A stretch of DNA of 64,000 bases from assembly GCA_026004675.1 (NCBI GenBank), contig BPJP01000002.1, forward strand, positions 248,001 through 312,000, read 5' to 3'. The translations under genes and the position numbers were made by a program. The DNA is from Gemmatales bacterium (GTDB lineage: Bacteria; Planctomycetota; Planctomycetia; Gemmatales; Gemmataceae). Each line of letters starts with the position of its first letter. Within the stretch, counting starts at the first letter, position 1. The notes under the pieces are model-generated. The model was given only the letters and a program-made list of their open reading frames with translations. It did not search any database and was not told the origin of the DNA. This document shows positions 4,455-34,032 of the stretch, piece after piece.

Positions 4455-5351
4455 ATGAATATGAGCACGGATTCGCAAAACCCGGCAACCCGCGCGTGGA
4501 CCATCGGTTCGCTTCTCGATTGGACAGCATCGTTTCTGGCGCAGCGAGGAGCGGAGTCGCCCCGGCTGGACGCGGAGGTTTTGCTTGCTTACGTTCTGCG
4601 TTGCCGGCGCATCGACTTGTACACTCGATTTACCGAACCAGCGCAGCAAGCCACATGTGAACAATACCGCGGTCTGATCCAGCGACGAATGGAAGGCTGC
4701 CCGGTTGCTTATCTGGTCGGCAAAAAAGAATTTTATGGTCTGGAACTCGAGGTCAACGCCTCGGTTCTGATTCCCCGGCCGGACAGCGAGTTTGTCGTCA
4801 TGGAATGCTTGCGGCTGGCAAAGGACATCGCCGAGCCGCACATTCTCGACCTTGGTACTGGTTCCGGGAACCTGGCCATTGCCATTGCCAAAAACCATCG
4901 GGGAGCACGCATCACTGCGGTGGATATCAGCCCCCAGGCTATCGAAGTCGCCCGTCGCAATGCCGAAAGACATCGGGTAAGCGAGCGCCTCGCTTTTTTG
5001 ACAGGCGACCTCTTCGAACCGCTGGACAGAGGAAGGCGATTCGATTTCATCGTCAGCAATCCACCCTATATCCCTCGGGGGGAGATCAAAAACCTCGAGC
5101 CGGGAGTTCGCGACTTCGAACCACATGCGGCATTGGACGGAGGCCCGACGGGGTTTGAAGTGTTGACCAGGATTGCAGCGCATGCCAGAAGTTTTTTGGT
5201 GGAAGGCGGATATGTGATCGTCGAAATCGGCGCGCCCCAGGAAAAAGGAGCCCGCGCCTGCTTCGCGCAACACCCGGAATACCGACTGGCCGAGACGATC
5301 TACGATTATTCCCGGCATCCTCGGGTTTTATGCGCTCGTTTCATAAAATGA
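4455..5351 (+). CDS. prmC: Release factor glutamine N5-methyltransferase
   Basis: A 298-residue SAM-dependent methyltransferase that modifies the GGQ glutamine of release factors. The N-terminal helical domain is followed by the SAM motif DLGTGSG (132-138), VDIS, and the substrate-glutamine motif NPPY (202-205). It lies directly after prfA in the classic pair. The chosen start gives MNMSTDSQ; a second Met two codons later is equally possible. Confidence 0.95.
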   Translation: MNMSTDSQNPATRAWTIGSLLDWTASFLAQRGAESPRLDAEVLLAYVLRCRRIDLYTRFTEPAQQATCEQYRGLIQRRMEGCPVAYLVGKKEFYGLELEVNASVLIPRPDSEFVVMECLRLAKDIAEPHILDLGTGSGNLAIAIAKNHRGARITAVDISPQAIEVARRNAERHRVSERLAFLTGDLFEPLDRGRRFDFIVSNPPYIPRGEIKNLEPGVRDFEPHAALDGGPTGFEVLTRIAAHARSFLVEGGYVIVEIGAPQEKGARACFAQHPEYRLAETIYDYSRHPRVLCARFIK

Positions 5352-22818: not shown

Positions 22819-24794
22819 TCACTTGCCGCCAAATAGTTGCTGCTCGGCGATGGCCAGGTTGTAGCGTTTTTTCGCCGTTTCCAACAGTTTCTGCTGGAAC
22901 TGGGGATGTTCCTTGAGGACTTTCCGAAAGTCGGATTGTTCAAGGATGAAGACGTCGCAATCGGTTTTGGCGCGAATCGTGGCAGTGCGGGGTTGGGAAC
23001 ATCAACAAAGCCACTTCGCCGAACACGTCCCCTTCGCAAAGAGTGCTGATAACCTTGCCGTGATCATCGATGACCTCAACGACGCCGCGATTGAGGAGAT
23101 ACATCTCTTTGCCGGTTTCGCCTTTCTTGATGATGACGTCGCCGGCTGAATAGACGGTCGGTTTTGAGCATCATGAGAATGGAGTTGCGGAAGATCGCAT
23201 CGCAGCCTTCGAAGAGGGGAACTTTTTCGAGGATTTCCTGGCTGACGATCTCGGTCCAGCGTCGGCCATCCGCTTCGATGAAGTCGAAGGCGGCTTTGGG
23301 TCCCCACGACCCGAAAGGATAATTGGGAAAGTCTTTGGCCGGGTTGGCTTTCCAGGCATCGAGAATAGGCTGGACGACGCGCCAGGCGGTTTCGACCAGG
23401 TCGGTACGGGGAAAACAGAGTGGCATCGCCGATCATGCACTGATAGAGCAGGACCTCGTAGCCGGTGCCGCGAACAGCGCTGAAGGCTTCGCCATAATTG
23501 AACCGCATGTTGACTTTTTGCAACAGCATGGAAGGTCCAGGCGTCTTGGCCTGAAAACGCAGTTCGATCCCCTGGTCGGGTTGGATGTGGAAGATCAATT
23601 GATTGTTATCGAGAAAGGCAGCGGCTGGAGTGCCGCGAAAGATGACCTGCGGCGCCCGGCGAAAACAAACGACGATCTCCGTGCCGCGTTTCCACAGTGC
23701 TTTGCCGGAGCGCAGATAAATCGGCACACCGTCCCAGCGCCAGTTGTCGATATACAACTTCATGGCGGCGAAAGTCTCCGTTTGCGATTCCGGATTGACA
23801 TCCGGTTCCTGACGGTAGCCGACCGCTGGTTCGCCGTTCGGTTTTTTGCCCGGACCGTACTGTCCGCGCACAGTATGCGTCAGCACTTCTTCGGGGGAGT
23901 AGATGCGGATGGCCTCCAAAACCTTGGCCTTCTCATTGCGGATGGCGTCAGCCTTGAACGAACTCGGCGGTTCCATGCACAGGTAAGCCAGCATCTGGAA
24001 CATGTGGTTCTGGATCATGTCGCGCAGAACGCCGGAGCGATCGTAGTAATTGCCTCGCCCTTCCACGCCCACCGATTCCGAGACGGTGAACTGGATATGA
24101 TCCACATAGCGCTTGTTCCACAGAGGTTCGAAGATGCCGTTGGCAAAAACGAAAAGCTAACAGATTCTGCACCGTCTCTTTGCCAAGGTAGTGGTCGATC
24201 CGATAAATCTGGTCTTCGGTCCAATACTTCAAAAGGGTCCGGTTCAGCTCGATGGCGGAGGGGAGGTCCGTGCCGAACGGTTTCTCGACAATGATCCGTT
24301 TCCAGCCGGGCAGTTTCTTGAAGCCGGAGGCTTCGATACCGTCGGAGATCATGCCGAAGACGGCCGGCGGCGTCGCCATGTAAAAAAAGGACGTTCCCCT
24401 GCGTACCCAGTTCGCCGTCCAGTTTCGTCACCAGTTCCAGCAGTTTTTGAAAGGCAGCAGCGTCGTCGAATCGACCGGGCGTGTAATAGAGCTTCTTGAC
24501 GAATTCATTCCAAACGCCTTCATCGAATTGCTTGCGCGTGTTGAACTGTTTGATGTCGTTGGTCATGCGCTGCCGGAATGTTTCCGTCGTCATGTCGTCC
24601 AAAGCCATGCCGACAATGGCGAAACAATCTGGCAACAGTCTGTCGCAGGCCAGGTTGAACAACGCCGGCATCAGCAGCCGTTTCGTCAAATCTCCCGAGG
24701 CGCCGAAAATCACCATGATGCACGGGTCGCCTGGTTGCTCCTTGATAGGCTCTTCGGAAGTGATGACCCCGCAAACTCCAACCACGTCAGCCAT
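22819..24794 (-). pseudogene. zwf: Glucose-6-phosphate dehydrogenase fused to a cyclic-nucleotide-binding domain, frameshifted by five insertions
   Basis: Starting at 24794 and removing one base at five homopolymers (24382-24388, 24145-24149, about 23408-23415, 23162-23165, 22989-22992) gives a continuous 656-residue protein ending at TGA 22821-22819. The first ~510 residues are G6PDH: NAD(P)-binding [28 protein letters not shown], the catalytic [13 protein letters not shown], then PIYLRSGKAL. This is the entry enzyme of the oxidative pentose-phosphate pathway. The last ~130 residues are a cNMP-binding fold: LEKVPLFEG, YSAGDVIIKKGETGKEMYLL, a phosphate-binding cassette FGEVALL...RTATIRA with the conserved Glu and Arg. 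All changes are insertions in homopolymers, so the gene is probably intact in the organism. Confidence 0.8.
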
Positions 24795-25494: not shown

Positions 25495-26601
25495 ATGAAG
25501 CTGACCAACACCGGTTTATCGATACTGGCGCTCGTTTCCCTGTCGCTGCCCGCTTGCCACATGCAAGCCGAAGGGCAGCAGCACGAAAGAACACGGCACG
25601 ATCGTGGTGACAAGTCCCAAAGTCGAAGATGTAGTCACCACACAGCAGTTCGTTTGCCAGATACATTCCCGGCGGCACATCGAGATCCGCGCCCTGGAAC
25701 GGGGCTATTTGAAAGAAGTGAATTTCAAGGAGGGACAGGCGGTGAAGAAGGGGGATGTTCTCTTCAAGATCATGCCCATCCTCTACAAAGCCGAATACGA
25801 CGCCGCCCAGGCGGAAGCAAAGTTCGCTCAAGTCGAGCTGGACAATGCCGAGATGCTTTACAAGCAAAAAGTGGTTTCGATCCAGGAAGTCGCTTTGTTC
25901 CGCGCCAAACTCGCCAAAGCCAAAGCCAAGGCGAAACTGGCTGAAGCTCACTTGAATTTCAGCACCATCCGCGCTCCCTTCGACGGAATCGTTCATCGCC
26001 AATACCAGCAGCTTGGTGCCCTTGTCGAAGAACGGGACGTTCTCACCACCCTTTCGGACAACAGCGTCATGTGGGTTTATTTCAATGTGCCCGAAGCCTT
26101 CTACCTCGACTACATGACCAAAAAGAAAAACAACCATTCGGCAGACAACGAGACCATTGAACTCTTGCTCGCCAACGGCAGCAAGTTCCCCTACAAGGGA
26201 AAGATCGCCGCCATCGAAGGACAATTCAACAATGAAACCGGCAATATTCCGTTTCGCGCCGACTTCCCCAATCCGGACGGCTTGTTGCGGCACGGTCAAA
26301 ACCGGCACCGTCCTGATCCAACAAACCTTGCACAACGCCATCGTCATTCCGCAGCGGGCAACGTTCGAAATCCTAGACAAACAATATGTCTTCGTTGTCG
26401 ACGACGAAGACGTTGTTCACCAGCGCGAAATCGGCATCCAAACCGAATTGGGACGACATTTTCGTCATCAACCGAGGACTGGCCCCGAACGAGAAATTCG
26501 TTCTCGAAGGCATCCGCCAGGTCCATGACGGCGAAAAGATCGAGTACGAGTGGATCAAACCGGAAGAGGCGCTCAAACACTTGAAATTTCACGCCGAGTA
26601 G
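25495..26601 (+). pseudogene. RND efflux periplasmic adaptor (membrane fusion protein), frameshifted by three insertions
   Basis: ATG at 25495 (Shine-Dalgarno AAGGAG at about 25479) starts MKLTNTGLSILALVSLSLPACHM, a lipoprotein-type signal. Removing one base near 25573-25588, one A at 26298-26301 and one G at 26450-26452 gives a 367-residue HlyD/AcrA-type adaptor. Features include the lipoyl half-motifs (ALERGYLKEVNFKEGQAVKKGDVLFKI and LNFSTIRAPFDGIVHRQ), a helical hairpin between them and a beta-barrel (VPEAFYLDYM). It would link the inner-membrane pump immediately downstream to an outer-membrane channel. The insertions resemble sequencing errors. Confidence 0.8.
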
Positions 26602-26644: not shown

Positions 26645-29600
26645 ATGTTTACGAGAATCCTCCATCGGCCAGCATTGGCAATTGTGATTTCGATCCTGCT
26701 CTTGTTCGTCGGCGGCCTGGGAATCGCCACGCTGCCGATCGAGCAATTCCCCTCCATCACGCCGCCGACCGTCCAAGTCGCCATCGCTTACCCCGGTGCC
26801 AGTGCCAACGTTCTCGTCAACTCGGTGCTCATCCCTCTGGAGCGGTCCATCAACGGCGTGCAGAACATGCGCTACATGGTGTCGGACGCGACCAGCGCCG
26901 GCGAGGCGACCATCACAATCTATTTCGAACCGGCTACCGATCCGAATATCAACGTCGTGAACGTGCAAAACCGGGTCAACGTCGTCAAGAATCAGCTGCC
27001 GCCGCTGGTCGTCCGCGAGGGCATCCTGGTCTATCAGGTCGTGCCGAGCATGTTGATGTATGTCAATGTCTACAGCACCGACCCCAACGCCGATCAGAAA
27101 TTCCTGTACAACTTTACCAACACCATCATCATGCCGCGCATCAAACGGATTCCCGGAATGGGAAGGCCTCGCAACCTCGGCAACCGCTCCTATGCCATGC
27201 GCATCTGGCTGAACCCCGATCGCATGCGCGCCTACAAGATTTCTACCGAAGATGTCATGGAAGCCATCGCGGAACAGAGCGTCATCGGGTCGCCCGGCCG
27301 GCTCGGCCAGGCTACCGGCTTCACTTCGCAATCCAAAGAATACGTCCTCACCTACATCGGACGATACAACCAACCCGAACAATACGCCGACATCATCCTC
27401 AAAGCCAACCCCGACGGGGAAGTGTTGCGTCTCAAGGATATCGGCAAGGTCGAACTCGGCTCGGAGTTCTTCGACATCTACTCCGACATCAACGGTCATC
27501 CTGCCGCTTCCATCGCTCTCAAGCAGGCTCCGGGATCGAACGCCACCGCCGTCATCGAGGCGGTCAAGAAGGAACTAGAACAGATCAAAGAAGAATCGTT
27601 TCCGCCGGGCATGGATTATGAGATAGCCTACGACGTTTCCCGGTTCGTCGAAGCGTCGATCGAAAAAGTCCTCCATACCCTTTTGGAAGCTTTTATTCTC
27701 GTCGCTCTGGTCGTCTACATGTTCCTGGGCGACTTGCGTTCGACGTTGATCCCGACCCTGGCGGTGCCCGTTTCGCTGATCGGAACCTTTTTCGTCCTGA
27801 AGTTGTTCGGGCTGTCGATCAACCTGATCACGCTGTTCGCAATGGTCTTGGCGATTGGCGTCGTCGTTGACGACGCCATCGTCCTTGTCGAAGCCGTCCA
27901 TGCCAAGATGCACGAGAAACACCTGTCGCCTTATCGGGCGAGCATGGAAGTGTTGCACGAGATCGCCGGTGCGATCATCGCCATCACTCTGGTCATGTCC
28001 GCCGTCTTCATCCCGGTGACGTTCATTCCGGGTCCGGTCGGCCAGTTCTATCGCAACTTTGGGATCACGATGGCGACTTCGATCGTTTTCTCTGGATTGG
28101 TGGCATTGACGCTTACGCCCGTGCTGTGCGCCATGATCCTGCGTCCGATCAACCATCACGCTGACGGCAACTCGAAGAACGGCAAGAAACGGATCACATT
28201 GACCGCGAAGACGATCGCTCTTTACCTTGTTGGCGGAGCGATCGTGCTGGCGCCGTTGACGTACCTTGCCCATTATTTGTGGGGTCCGATCGGGTTTTTG
28301 CTCATCCTGGTGCCATTTGTTCAGCGACCTTTCAGCAACCTGGTGGACAAAGTGACCAACGGCTATGCGGGCATACTGAAACGAGTCGTGACGCGCCGCG
28401 TGCTCAGTTTGGCGGTCGTCGGGAGTTTCGCCTTTGGTATCGTCACCGTCAACACGCAGCTGCCCAGCGGCTTTATCCCCAACGAGGACCAGGGGGTCCT
28501 GTATGCCGTTTTCCAGACGCCTCCGGGATCGACATTGGAGTACACCAACGCCAAGGCGCAGGAACTAGAGGAGATTGCCAAAGAGGTCGAAGAAGTGACG
28601 TCGGTAACAGCTCTGGCGGGATATGAAGTATTAACGGAAGGGCGCGGTTCGAATGCCGGGACCTGCATTATCAACTTGAAGGACTGGTCCGAGCGCAAGC
28701 GGACGGCTCGGGAGATCATGAAAGAGCTTGAAGAAAAATGCCGCCGCATGACCAACGTGAAGCTTGAATTTTTCGAGCCTCCCGCTGTTCCGGGCTTCGG
28801 TGCCGCCGGCGGTTTCTCCATGCGCATTCTCGACCAGACGAATTCGGCCACCCCCGATTACAAGCGGCTTGGTGAAGTGACCGACCGTTTTCTGGCCGCC
28901 TTGTCCAAACGCAAGGAAGTGACCAACCTATTCACCTTTTATACGGCCGATTACCCGCAGTATGAACTCATCATCGACAACCAGGCAGCCATGCAGAAGG
29001 GGGTCACCATCAAGAAAGCGCTCGATCAACTGAACATTCTCATCGGCAGCACCTATGAGCAAGGCTTCATTCTCTTCGGCATGTTCTACAAGGTCTACGT
29101 TCAGGCATTGCCGGAGTTTCGCCGCTACCCCAAAGACCTGGACAACATGTTCGTCAAGAACGAACACGGAGAAATGGTTCCCTATTCTTCGTTCATGAAA
29201 ATCAAGAAGAAGCAAGGACTGAACGAGATCACCCGTTATAACGTTTACCCGTCGGCGGCCATCCAAGGCGCTCCTGCCCCGGGCTACAGCAGCGGCCAGG
29301 CCCTGCAAGCGATCCGCGAAGTCGCTGCCCAGACCCTTCCCAAGGGCTACGGCATCGGCTGGGAGGGAATCTCCTGGGACGAATCGAAAAAGGGCAACGA
29401 AGACGTCTACATCTTCTTGATCGTGGTGGCATTCGTGTACCTCGTCCTGGTCGGACAATACGAAAGTTTTCTGTTGCCGCTGGCCGTCGTCTTGTCCCTG
29501 CCCGTCGGAGTCTTCGGTTCCTTTTTGTTGCTGAGGCTCATGGGACTGGCCAACGACGTCTGGGCACAAATTGGTCTCATCATGCTCGTCGGTCTGCTCG

Positions 29601-30415
29601 GCAAGAATGCCATCCTCATCGTGGAATTCGCGGTCCAACGGCGGCGCGAGGGCATTCCCATCAGTGAAGCCGCCGTCGAAGGCGGACGGTTGCGTTTTCG
29701 GCCGATTCAAATGACCTCGTTCGCTTTCGTTGCCGGTCTTTTGCCTCTGCTCGGCGCCACCGGGGCTGGGGCGATTGGCAGCCGAACCATCGGAACCACC
29801 GGCGTCGGAGGCATGCTGTTCGGCACCATTCTTGGCGTCCTGGTTATTCCCGGTCTTTACTACATTTTCGCCAGAATCGCCGACGGCAAACAACTCCTCC
29901 GCGACGAGACCAGCGAACCGCTCAGCGAAATGTTCGAACACGCTCCGAATATCGAACCACTGCCGCAGGCGTCGGTTGACGACATAATGGCCCTGTTGAA
30001 GTACCTCGAAGAACGGGGCGGTCAGGAGGACCTGTCGCAAATCGCGGTACAGATGCAGCGTGAGTTCGGCCAAGTGGTCAGCATGGCGCAGGCGGCAACT
30101 CTGCTGGAGTTCGTGTCGGTTGTCCAGCGACAAGTTCGGCTCAACCCAGAGGGGACGCGATTCCTTCAAGCCAGCGAGTCGGAGCGACAGCGAATCTGGC
30201 GGCAAGACATCTTGCAATTGAGGCTCTTCCGCGATGTACAAGAGATGATTCGGCGGGCAGGAGGTCCAATCCACTGCGACCTCGTACGGGAAACGCTGAT
30301 CCTTTATCTCCCCCAGGAAGATCACGAAAAACAACTGGCCACATTGTTGAATTGGGCGGAATATGGCGGGCTTTTTACGTATGACGTTGCCAAGGACGAG
30401 TTAGCTCTCCGCTAA
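26645..30415 (+). CDS. HAE1-type RND efflux pump with C-terminal AAA-associated domain
   Basis: 1256 residues, longer than the usual ~1050. Residues 1 to ~1085 are a hydrophobe/amphiphile RND transporter: MFTRILHRPALAIVISILLL, porter-domain GVQNMRYMVSDATSAGEATI, the proton-relay Asp pair in LAIGVVVDDAIVLVEAVH (TM4) and the relay Lys in LLGKNAILIVEFAVQRR (TM10). Between the halves (about 510-575) there are extra hydrophobic segments. From about 1108 to 1255 follows a soluble domain (VDDIMALLKYLEERGG... VRLNPEGTRFLQA ... LLNWAEYGGLFTYD) that reads like the AAA-associated C-terminal domain (PF09821 type) normally found on nitrate/sulfonate ABC ATPases. It forms a tripartite set with the adaptor upstream and the TolC-like protein downstream. 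The reading frame is intact throughout. Confidence 0.9.
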   Translation: MFTRILHRPALAIVISILLLFVGGLGIATLPIEQFPSITPPTVQVAIAYPGASANVLVNSVLIPLERSINGVQNMRYMVSDATSAGEATITIYFEPATDPNINVVNVQNRVNVVKNQLPPLVVREGILVYQVVPSMLMYVNVYSTDPNADQKFLYNFTNTIIMPRIKRIPGMGRPRNLGNRSYAMRIWLNPDRMRAYKISTEDVMEAIAEQSVIGSPGRLGQATGFTSQSKEYVLTYIGRYNQPEQYADIILKANPDGEVLRLKDIGKVELGSEFFDIYSDINGHPAASIALKQAPGSNATAVIEAVKKELEQIKEESFPPGMDYEIAYDVSRFVEASIEKVLHTLLEAFILVALVVYMFLGDLRSTLIPTLAVPVSLIGTFFVLKLFGLSINLITLFAMVLAIGVVVDDAIVLVEAVHAKMHEKHLSPYRASMEVLHEIAGAIIAITLVMSAVFIPVTFIPGPVGQFYRNFGITMATSIVFSGLVALTLTPVLCAMILRPINHHADGNSKNGKKRITLTAKTIALYLVGGAIVLAPLTYLAHYLWGPIGFLLILVPFVQRPFSNLVDKVTNGYAGILKRVVTRRVLSLAVVGSFAFGIVTVNTQLPSGFIPNEDQGVLYAVFQTPPGSTLEYTNAKAQELEEIAKEVEEVTSVTALAGYEVLTEGRGSNAGTCIINLKDWSERKRTAREIMKELEEKCRRMTNVKLEFFEPPAVPGFGAAGGFSMRILDQTNSATPDYKRLGEVTDRFLAALSKRKEVTNLFTFYTADYPQYELIIDNQAAMQKGVTIKKALDQLNILIGSTYEQGFILFGMFYKVYVQALPEFRRYPKDLDNMFVKNEHGEMVPYSSFMKIKKKQGLNEITRYNVYPSAAIQGAPAPGYSSGQALQAIREVAAQTLPKGYGIGWEGISWDESKKGNEDVYIFLIVVAFVYLVLVGQYESFLLPLAVVLSLPVGVFGSFLLLRLMGLANDVWAQIGLIMLVGLLGKNAILIVEFAVQRRREGIPISEAAVEGGRLRFRPIQMTSFAFVAGLLPLLGATGAGAIGSRTIGTTGVGGMLFGTILGVLVIPGLYYIFARIADGKQLLRDETSEPLSEMFEHAPNIEPLPQASVDDIMALLKYLEERGGQEDLSQIAVQMQREFGQVVSMAQAATLLEFVSVVQRQVRLNPEGTRFLQASESERQRIWRQDILQLRLFRDVQEMIRRAGGPIHCDLVRETLILYLPQEDHEKQLATLLNWAEYGGLFTYDVAKDELALR

Positions 30416-30752: not shown

Positions 30753-32516
30753 GTGCGACCTGCCGACCGGGATGAACCTAAAGTGAACTCGAAGATAATT
30801 CATCAAAGGCGGGCTTTGTTGCGCGCTTTTGCTGGGGCGGCTTTGATACTTCTTCCGTCGTGCGGCATCCCGCGATTAAGGCAGCCGGAACCCGGACCCG
30901 CTCTTCCAGCAGAGTATCATTTGTTCCCCGGTGGAAAGCAATTCCCTCCAGGCACTGATCCGTATGGCTCCGAGTCGGAACCTATTCAGCAGGTAAGCTA
31001 CAGCCAGACTGGTTCCTCGCAGCCGATGGGTGATTCCGCTGACCCAGCCAGCATAGAAAACTCCGCCCAGCTGAGTTTTGAAGAGTTTTTCGACGATCCA
31101 GTCCTGAGCGACTTGATCTACCAGGGACTGGCACGGAATCAGGAATTGAGGATTCTCAACGAAGAGATCCAGATAGCCAGGAATGAGTATCTCGCTCGCA
31201 GGCGGACATATTGGCCATTTATTGATTTCGGCGCTCGATGGGGTTTGGACAAACCGAGCTTGTTCACCCCGCTCGGTGCTGCGGAGGACCAACTGGAAGC
31301 TGTGCCGGGCGTCTCGTTTCCCGATCCTTTGCCCGATTACCAACTCGGCTTCACGTTCTTGTGGCGATTGGACATTTGGCGCGAACTGCGGAACGCCCGG
31401 GATGCTGCCTGGCAGCGCTATCTGGCGGCCATCGAGAAACGAAACTTCTTTGTCACTCGCCTGGTCGCAGAAATTGCAGAAAGTTATTACAAGCTGTTAG
31501 CCCTCGACAACACGCTGTCCAACCTGGCCAGAACCGTACGGTTGCAGAGCCAGGCGTTGGAAGTCGCCAAAGCGCGGCTGAAAGCGGGGCGGGGCACTGC
31601 GTTAGCGGTCCAGCGTTTCGAAGCCGCCGTGCGCAAAAACCAGGCCGAAATGCAGATCGTTCGCCAGCAGATCATCGAAGTCGAAAACCGCGTAAACTTT
31701 CTGATTAACCGGCTACCGCAACCGGTCGAGCGTCGTCTCGCGGATTTCGCGGACTTTCTCAACCTGAACATCCACACGCTCGCTGCGGGCATCCCGCCGC
31801 AGCTCCTTCTGAATCGGCCTGACATCCGCCAGGCGGAGCGTGAACTCATCGCTGCCGGCCTGGACGTCCGTGTCGCTCGGGCGCATTTCTTCCCTCGACT
31901 CGATTTGACAGCGGGTGTGGGCTACCAGGCGTTCCAGCCAAAATTTCTCTTCACGCCCGAATCGCTGGTCTACAACGTAGCGGGCGATCTGGTCGTGCCG
32001 GTCATCAATCGGGCCGCGATCCGCGCCGAATACCGCAGCGCCAATGCTGCCCAGCTGCAGGCCGTCTACAACTACCAGCGTACTGTTCTCAACGCCTTCA
32101 CAGAGGTCGTCAACCGCCTTTCCAAGGTCCAGAATTTCACGCACAGTATCGAACGGAAAAAGCTGCAAATCAATTCACTCGAAGACGCTGTTGAATCGGC
32201 GAACAAATTGTTCAAGGCAGCGCGTGTCGAATATATCGAAGTCCTCCTCGCTCAACGCGATCTCCAGGAAGCTCGTGCGGAGCTTATTGAAATCAAGCAA
32301 GAACAACTGGCCGCCATTGTCAACACCTATCAAGCGCTTGGCGGCGCCTGGCGGCAATATGCGTTGGCGAGGCGCAACGAGCCGCATCCTTGTTATCCGT
32401 GTTCCTCGGCGGCTTCGATGGTCCAGGTGTCGGTGCCCGCAACAGAGGAGACACTGCCGGAACCTCGTCGGCTGCCGGTCCACGTTCAAGATGAGAAAGC
32501 CAATCCGGCAAAATAA
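30753..32516 (+). CDS. TolC/OprM-type outer-membrane efflux lipoprotein
   Basis: 587 residues. GTG start at 30753 sits behind AGGAGG (30739-30744). The lipoprotein signal ends ALILLPSCG, lipid Cys at 37. Two repeated outer-membrane-efflux (OEP) units follow, with long helical barrels (RNQELRILNEEIQIARNEYLARR; RAEYRSANAAQLQAVYNYQRTVLNAFTEVVNRLS) and the NRPDIRQAERELIAAGLDVRVARAHFFPRLDLTAGVGY signature split over about residues 350-390. It would form the trans-periplasmic channel for the adaptor and pump upstream. The C-terminal tail (after about 555) is Pro-rich and not part of the family. Confidence 0.9.
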   Translation: MRPADRDEPKVNSKIIHQRRALLRAFAGAALILLPSCGIPRLRQPEPGPALPAEYHLFPGGKQFPPGTDPYGSESEPIQQVSYSQTGSSQPMGDSADPASIENSAQLSFEEFFDDPVLSDLIYQGLARNQELRILNEEIQIARNEYLARRRTYWPFIDFGARWGLDKPSLFTPLGAAEDQLEAVPGVSFPDPLPDYQLGFTFLWRLDIWRELRNARDAAWQRYLAAIEKRNFFVTRLVAEIAESYYKLLALDNTLSNLARTVRLQSQALEVAKARLKAGRGTALAVQRFEAAVRKNQAEMQIVRQQIIEVENRVNFLINRLPQPVERRLADFADFLNLNIHTLAAGIPPQLLLNRPDIRQAERELIAAGLDVRVARAHFFPRLDLTAGVGYQAFQPKFLFTPESLVYNVAGDLVVPVINRAAIRAEYRSANAAQLQAVYNYQRTVLNAFTEVVNRLSKVQNFTHSIERKKLQINSLEDAVESANKLFKAARVEYIEVLLAQRDLQEARAELIEIKQEQLAAIVNTYQALGGAWRQYALARRNEPHPCYPCSSAASMVQVSVPATEETLPEPRRLPVHVQDEKANPAK

Positions 32517-32646: not shown

Positions 32647-34032
32647 ATGGGGCGTCGTCTGCTTGCTTTGTTTCTGTTGTTGTCGGGGCTTCGCGCGTTT
32701 GCCCAGAACGATGATTTGCCGGCGTCTTCCCTGCCGGCTCAATTTGCCGGCGAGCAGAAGGACCGGCCTGCATCCCCCGACTCAGCTCCCATGCTGCTCG
32801 TCAATCCCGAAGATTTGCGGCGATTCATCGACGATTACCTGGAAAGCAAAAAAGGAGATGTCGCCAAAGAGCCGATCAGCGAGGAAAAGCGCTACCCGAC
32901 CTTTCGCCTGACCGGCTTCTTTCACCTCGACGACGTGTACATCATCCAAGAAACGCGCAACCGCTTGACGGTCGGCAATGCAGGCGACGGACTGATGTTT
33001 CGGCGGGCACGGTTGGCTACCACCGGCAACTTGACCGACAACATCACTTATATCATGGAGTTTGACTTCGCCGCCTTTCAACCTTTGTTTGTCGACGTCT
33101 GGGCTAATTTCGCCGATATTCCAATCCTGGGAAATATTCGCATTGGCCGCTGGCGGCAACCGTTCGGCATGTCGGAACTGACGTCGATCCGGGAACTTCC
33201 GTTCCTCGAACGATCGTTGACTTTCGCGCTGTCGCCATTTCGGCAAACCGGCATCGGCGCTTTCGATACCGCCCTCGGCGAACGCGCCACTTGGGCGATT
33301 TCAGCATACCGTTTCAACACCGACTTTTTCGGCAACGTCATTGGCCATTCGGGAGGCTACGGCGCGGCGGTCAGGCTCACTGCCCTGCCCCACTTCGCTG
33401 ACGAAAGCAACCTGGTACATCTGGGGTTCGACTATAGCTTCAATGATCCGGAGGATAATGCCATACGCCTATTCCATACGCCCGAAGTTTTTGCCGCCGA
33501 TAGCCCCGTCGGCAACACGGTCGTCGTTGAAGATAGCATTCCTTTCTTCGTCGATACCGGACTGGTGCCAACGGCGTTCACGAACCTATTCAATGTTGAA
33601 GCTGCTTGCGTGTCTGGTCCGTTTGCTTTGCAGTCGGAAATGCGCTGGCTGCGTGTCGACCAGGGACAGGGGAACATACGGGTCATACCGGCTGTGTACG
33701 CCTATGTCCGGTACATTCTCACGGGCGAAAACCAGACCTATGACAAGAAAGCCGCGGTGCTGACTCGCATCAAACCATTGCGCCCCGTGCGCTTAGGTGG
33801 TGGCGGTTGGGGTGCCTGGGAAGTAGCCGCGCGATGGTCCTATATCGATCTGAACGGCACACTCGGCGACGGTCCCGGTCGCGCCTTGAATGATTTGACG
33901 TTCGGCATCAACTGGTATCTCAATGAGCGCAGCAAGTTCCAATTCAACTATATTCACGCCTTTCTCAATGATCCGACGCTCGGCCCCTCCAATGCCGACA
34001 TTTTCGCCCTGCGTTTTCAGATGGATTTTTGA
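32647..34032 (+). CDS. Phosphate-selective porin O/P-like outer-membrane protein
   Basis: 461 residues. Signal peptide MGRRLLALFLLLSGLRAFAQ, then a short linker with a helical stretch, and a beta-barrel of the OprO/OprP type: FRLTGFFHLDDVYI, GLMFRRARLATTGNLTDNITYIMEFDF, a WRQPFGMSELTS segment. The C-terminus is Phe (FALRFQMDF), as expected for outer-membrane barrel assembly. Substrate specificity is not readable. It follows the efflux channel gene by 130 bases on the same strand. Confidence 0.85.
   Translation: MGRRLLALFLLLSGLRAFAQNDDLPASSLPAQFAGEQKDRPASPDSAPMLLVNPEDLRRFIDDYLESKKGDVAKEPISEEKRYPTFRLTGFFHLDDVYIIQETRNRLTVGNAGDGLMFRRARLATTGNLTDNITYIMEFDFAAFQPLFVDVWANFADIPILGNIRIGRWRQPFGMSELTSIRELPFLERSLTFALSPFRQTGIGAFDTALGERATWAISAYRFNTDFFGNVIGHSGGYGAAVRLTALPHFADESNLVHLGFDYSFNDPEDNAIRLFHTPEVFAADSPVGNTVVVEDSIPFFVDTGLVPTAFTNLFNVEAACVSGPFALQSEMRWLRVDQGQGNIRVIPAVYAYVRYILTGENQTYDKKAAVLTRIKPLRPVRLGGGGWGAWEVAARWSYIDLNGTLGDGPGRALNDLTFGINWYLNERSKFQFNYIHAFLNDPTLGPSNADIFALRFQMDF

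Follow-up and report, generated by a model that had tools for sequence, protein, structure and literature searches.

A PF09821 domain at the C-terminus of RND efflux pumps of two types, a candidate regulatory or docking module

In a window of 64,000 nucleotides from a Gemmatales bacterium (contig BPJP01000002.1, positions 248,001 to 312,000), one gene, P0001, encodes a full resistance-nodulation-division (RND) efflux pump of the HAE1 type followed by a complete PF09821 (AAA_assoc_C) domain. The usual setting of PF09821 is the C-terminus of an ATP-binding cassette (ABC) ATPase, and P0001 departs from it, since no ABC_tran match was found in this protein by a Pfam scan. The fusion is already visible in Pfam annotation, yet a literature search made largely without subscription papers found no account of PF09821 on an RND pump. 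In our best reading, the domain is a regulatory or docking module common to an ABC system and to RND pumps. The gene and its parts are as follows.

26645..30415, + strand: RND pump gene with C-terminal PF09821 domain, P0001, 1256 residues (open reading frame and Pfam)
26657..29869, + strand: RND core, ACR_tran, residues 5-1075, HAE1 type (Pfam, TIGR00915 and motifs)
29870..29953, + strand: C-terminal tail or linker, residues 1076-1103, similar in orthologues with and without the domain
29954..30412, + strand: AAA_assoc_C (PF09821) including the EPLP lead-in, residues 1104-1256; profile matched over 1132-1247
29972..30172, + strand: winged helix 1, residues 1110-1176, predicted (structure prediction)
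30173..30412, + strand: winged helix 2, residues 1177-1256, predicted (structure prediction)
30098..30100, + strand: codon 1152, T in the window copy and E in 138 of 140 aligned domains
30359..30361, + strand: codon 1239, E in the window copy and R in 134 of 140 aligned domains

The reading frame at 26645-30415 is uninterrupted over 1256 codons. With hmmscan, ACR_tran is placed at residues 5-1075 (952.4 bits) and PF09821 at residues 1132-1247 (71.6 bits, against a Pfam gathering cut-off of 27.6), the latter over profile positions 2-119 of 119 and thus as a whole domain. Searched by itself, the extension reaches 76.2 bits against PF09821 (E 4.2e-21), while DUF7226 (PF23871) on the same stretch stays below its cut-off (17.4 versus 27). 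A preliminary description of this DNA had named the domain as of PF09821 type and set the extension at 29965-30415; the profile search agrees with the name, and the homologous stretch begins within a few codons of that position, at the EPLP motif (residue 1104, 29954). The pump also passes the NCBIfam subfamily model TIGR00915 (1018.2 bits, cut-off 940.35), and its core holds the VVDDA, GLLGKNAIL and RFRPIQMTS motifs. The motifs of TM4, TM10 and TM11, whose residues we take to form the proton relay, are present according to a motif check and an alignment to CmeB that ends in TM11. GC content by codon position has a coding pattern in the core, the linker and the domain alike, the second position being lowest in each. 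In the source genome (6.03 Mb, 37 contigs, 91% complete), the window pump is the single PF09821 match.

Relatives of this fusion were found in pumps of two types. In its own family, PF09821 occurs in 5 of 95 genomes, the window genome among them, and in one of these, G093, it is borne by another RND pump (P0002, 1192 residues, domain at 1064-1181, 78.1 bits). This pump is of the CusA/CzcA (HME) type (TIGR00914, 853.7 bits, cut-off 701.45), and its gene lies next to genes for an outer-membrane protein and an adaptor, all in one orientation. Searches with its extension returned PF00873 together with PF09821 on 14 of 14 matches, and searches with seven natural domains as query did so on 112 of 112; the latter count is a lower bound and silent on ABC ATPases, because scoring was confined to the 7993 candidates with most words in common and matches to proteins of ~620-1980 residues. 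The window extension used alone matched only itself, probably because this copy has diverged and the search relies on identical words, and a first contig scan and a viral scan with the second fused pump confirmed no relatives. Altogether, the fused set holds 118 identifiers and 117 distinct proteins including the window's (P0002 was also returned as P0003), of which 100 identifiers exceed 1100 residues and the others are shorter pieces. Sorting by the better match to either of two reference cores gave 9 pumps of the HAE1 type, the window's included, and 108 distinct pumps of the CusA/CzcA type. The other eight HAE1 pumps are ~77-82% identical to the window pump and have the same linker. The CusA/CzcA-type pumps (P0002-P0016 and others) share the architecture and the domain, but belong to another RND subfamily with a core only ~23% identical (P0002 versus the window pump). 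Most fused proteins come from metagenomes, the named origins being Gemmata, Gemmataceae, Thermoguttaceae and one labelled bacterium only, and precomputed Pfam annotation lists both families on fused RND proteins. The preliminary description had proposed, as a check, looking for the architecture in other planctomycete RND pumps, and some of these proteins are indeed labelled as planctomycete; uniqueness to one sequence is rejected by the 116 other distinct fused proteins.

Two of the fused pumps differ at core motifs. P0105, of the HAE1 type, reads VVDNA where the other eight read VVDDA. The G093 pump (L029 4643-8218) has N at the TM4 motif position, where D stands in 79 of the 81 HME identifiers matched by the pattern; 28 of 109 were unmatched by it, and N occurs in the P0002/P0003 protein only (two identifiers).

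Elsewhere, PF09821 was met mainly on ABC ATPases. Among 28 planctomycete rows, a Walker A motif stands in the same frame in 22, an RND pump in 2 (the window and G093), and 4 are unclear, being contig ends or short frames. A second contig scan gave 74 loci, which overlap partly with the contigs of those rows: 68 have Walker A, one is RND (L105, on G093's contig) and 5 are unclear. Carriers of PF09821 amount to 11 of 397 genomes in a class-wide sample and 20 of 392 in a phylum-wide sample, in which the window's and G093's are the only frames found to be pumps; four long frames of the phylum sample (858-1010 residues) have Walker A, and four new class matches were judged by frame length alone (440-470 residues). 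A long hydrophobic frame lies beside all 18 ABC loci inspected (two pairs are on the same contig), and the permeases scanned beside carriers have two BPD_transp_1 stretches in 4 of 4 cases (three planctomycete, one Methylocapsa). A plasmid search gave 11 records; of the ten listed, 8 are annotated as ABC ATPase and 2 are unannotated, one of which was checked and has Walker A. At one ABC locus (L035, 4508-6298), a PTS_EIIA_2 domain stands behind PF09821 on the ATPase, an unusual three-part architecture in a single protein. An Nrt/Ssu/Tau-like ABC system, CLIBASIA_02415/02420, was called possibly novel in 2012, with PF09821 on its ATPase predicted by HHsearch to be a winged helix and two tandem transmembrane domains in its permease; the portions of that paper on this system assign the domain no function (PMC3688454). 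The partner permease is also tabulated in a Liberibacter crescens paper, within its section on essential genes (PMC4837290). The CLIBASIA system resembles the window pump in that a domain of the same family closes the cytosolic portion of a transporter, and its tandem transmembrane domains recall the paired BPD_transp_1 stretches seen here (PMC3688454); unlike it, the window pump lacks any ATPase domain.

The unfused pumps suggest how the join arose. Among the matches listed with a locus, HAE1 pumps of the same family number 30, of which 28 are unfused once the window's and one without a readable C-terminal end are set aside; the nearest are ~80% identical to the window pump. All 28 end 27-102 residues past the core, compared with 181 in the window pump, and in 27 of them the tail has the form DGR(K/S)LL, as in the fused pumps. 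Because the tail is thus shared by unfused orthologues of the family, the domain was added at the C-terminus, behind a pre-existing tail. In a tree of 37 pumps, the nine fused ones group with the unfused L049 (Shimodaira-Hasegawa-like approximate likelihood ratio test 88, not starred), nested among unfused pumps. This tree needs two changes, which we read as one gain and one loss, two gains being the alternative. Downstream of the L049 pump, at ~5010-5141, its C-terminal tail occurs a second time in decayed form, possibly a relic of domain loss. Domain trees were built from 140 rows and from 56 rows (the latter with 24 of the 108 HME rows), after five duplicate or fragmentary rows had been removed or replaced (the window's own copy, L029, L025, L022 and L031 in the ABC file). 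The domains on HAE1 pumps make up one clade (97/93) and those on CusA-type pumps another (100/99), with ABC domains around them. However, monophyly of the RND domains as a whole is not rejected (approximately unbiased test, p-AU 0.418), and we therefore make no claim of two independent donations by ABC ATPases. Since the two kinds of core are so dissimilar, at least two joinings to pumps are needed, either twice via ABC ATPases or with one transfer between pumps.

The domain is predicted to fold as a tandem winged helix: AlphaFold2 returned two such units at a predicted local distance difference test score (pLDDT) of 91.6. Its best fold matches are MarR-type regulators, including the efflux-operon repressors MepR and MexR (a fold family missing from this match list is not thereby shown to lack the likeness), and Foldseek also lists an FeoC entry (4awx) for the second half (TM-score 0.50, E 0.49). 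Averaged over each carrier group, the domain is acidic, with a mean net charge of -8.6 in HAE1, -8.7 in HME and -7.8 in ABC proteins and extremes of -13 and +2; the presumed recognition helices have group means of -1.0 to +1.7.

From RND topology, the domain would lie in the cytosol. The presence of one domain at the end of two types of pump and of an ABC ATPase suggests a job common to transporters, such as detecting a signal in the cytosol or retaining a partner. Three copies would hang beneath the pump trimer and two beneath the ABC dimer; a signal or partner might be bound, perhaps between the winged helices, and binding would then slow, release or stabilise the transporter. That the domain is a post-translational control module, regulating the pump through a ligand or protein partner, is given a probability of roughly 0.45, and the regulatory role is putative. 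In the window's species this role may have changed, near-universal charged residues having been lost from the copy there. A broader version is put forward only tentatively: a transferable module, joined at least twice to proton-driven RND pumps and once more to an ATP-driven ABC family, would respond in all three to one and the same cytosolic signal and throttle transport whatever its energy source.

Several results weigh against such control. We know of no ligand, partner or transport effect on record for the domain, and a role in docking or stability is compatible with the same observations. No PDB chain was matched by Foldseek at E <= 0.001, and a PDB sequence search with the extension gave chance-level ferritin matches only (E 0.13 and above). 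Most winged helices bind DNA, and a mildly positive mean charge is seen for the second presumed recognition helix of HME (+1.7) and ABC (+1.3) carriers. L049 lies inside the fused group yet lacks the domain. Moreover, the window copy is the least typical of the HAE1 domains: it is 46.5-52.2% identical to the other eight, while the pumps are 77-82% identical, and domain identity in other HAE1 pairs is 59-87%. At 26 near-universal columns (at least 90% conserved in the other rows, and picked without the window row, which tilts the result against it), the window copy is changed at 4 and the other eight HAE1 copies at 0-2; P0002 is changed at 4, and ABC rows at up to 11 (mean 4.3).

Docking or stability without gating is a possibility to be taken seriously. 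The domain would hold a cytosolic protein or the pump's own trimer, or shield the pump from proteolysis. Its acidity and the charged residues conserved across both kinds of carrier point this way, and a precedent is FeoC, which binds FeoB and prevents its proteolysis (PMC5519574, in the portions dealing with FeoC). FeoC shares the winged-helix fold predicted for the PF09821 domain and acts on a membrane transporter, as this domain would; unlike the domain, it is a small separate protein with a 4Fe-4S cluster (PMC5519574), and the likeness shown is one of fold. Nothing in the present data separates docking from gating, and no partner gene has been mapped, the fused loci with DNA context being two (the window and G093's L029/L105).

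Loss of function, with the window copy a drifting passenger, is doubtful. It would account for the four changes (E1152T, R1239E, T1159V, F1231L), for the low identity of the domain relative to the pump, for the broken frame of the upstream adaptor gene and for L049. Against it, the frame is open through the domain, 22 of the 26 near-universal columns are kept and the fold is predicted with high confidence. E1119 and R1239 were considered as a covarying pair, which is unsupported: the window is the sole K-E row, and rows changed at 1119 nearly always keep R1239.

That the pump doubles as a membrane-tethered transcription factor, binding DNA through its winged helices, is very improbable. MarR/MepR-type regulators, efflux-operon repressors among them, share the fold, and the mildly positive second helix would suit such a role, but these regulators are separate DNA-binding proteins. 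The window domain is acidic and fused to a pump; the negative mean charge (about -8) in all three carrier groups makes DNA binding unlikely, and ABC ATPases carry the same domain.

An assembly artefact, in which an indel fused two neighbouring genes, can practically be dismissed: the adjoining adaptor gene does show frame changes, but fused relatives occur in both HAE1 and CusA-type pumps. The preliminary description had excluded an indel on the strength of the intact frame. That exclusion stands because eight other HAE1 pumps have the same linker and architecture; the open frame alone was too weak an argument, since the gene next to it runs through three frames. The other two parts of the pump operon are the following.

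25553..26598, + strand: membrane fusion protein (HlyD-type adaptor) gene, upstream, in three frames, with frame changes near 26300 and 26455
30753..32516, + strand: outer membrane efflux protein with two OEP stretches, the third component of the pump, downstream

Compared with intact orthologues, the adaptor occupies the successive frames 25553-26302, 26298-26462 and 26449-26598, which reflect either assembly indels or a damaged gene. At 23002-24794 on the - strand, another gene, presumably for glucose-6-phosphate dehydrogenase, is likewise spread across several overlapping frames. The next gene downstream of the outer-membrane one encodes a Porin_O_P protein (32647-34032, + strand).

In the textbook view, tripartite RND pumps lack a soluble domain on the cytosolic side and are controlled mainly at the level of transcription. 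The window pump resembles HAE1 pumps such as AcrB, MexB and CmeB in its whole core, its proton-relay motifs and its adaptor and outer-membrane genes, and differs from them by an additional C-terminal domain of ~150 residues. If the broader version of the control reading is true, this would be, to our knowledge, the first soluble sensor domain common to ABC transporters and RND efflux pumps. Its recurrence, probably on the cytosolic side, in drug- and metal-type RND pumps would make post-translational control of efflux directly testable, with natural pairs of fused and unfused orthologues, ~80% identical, as a built-in control, and the RND fusions provide a new handle on PF09821 itself.
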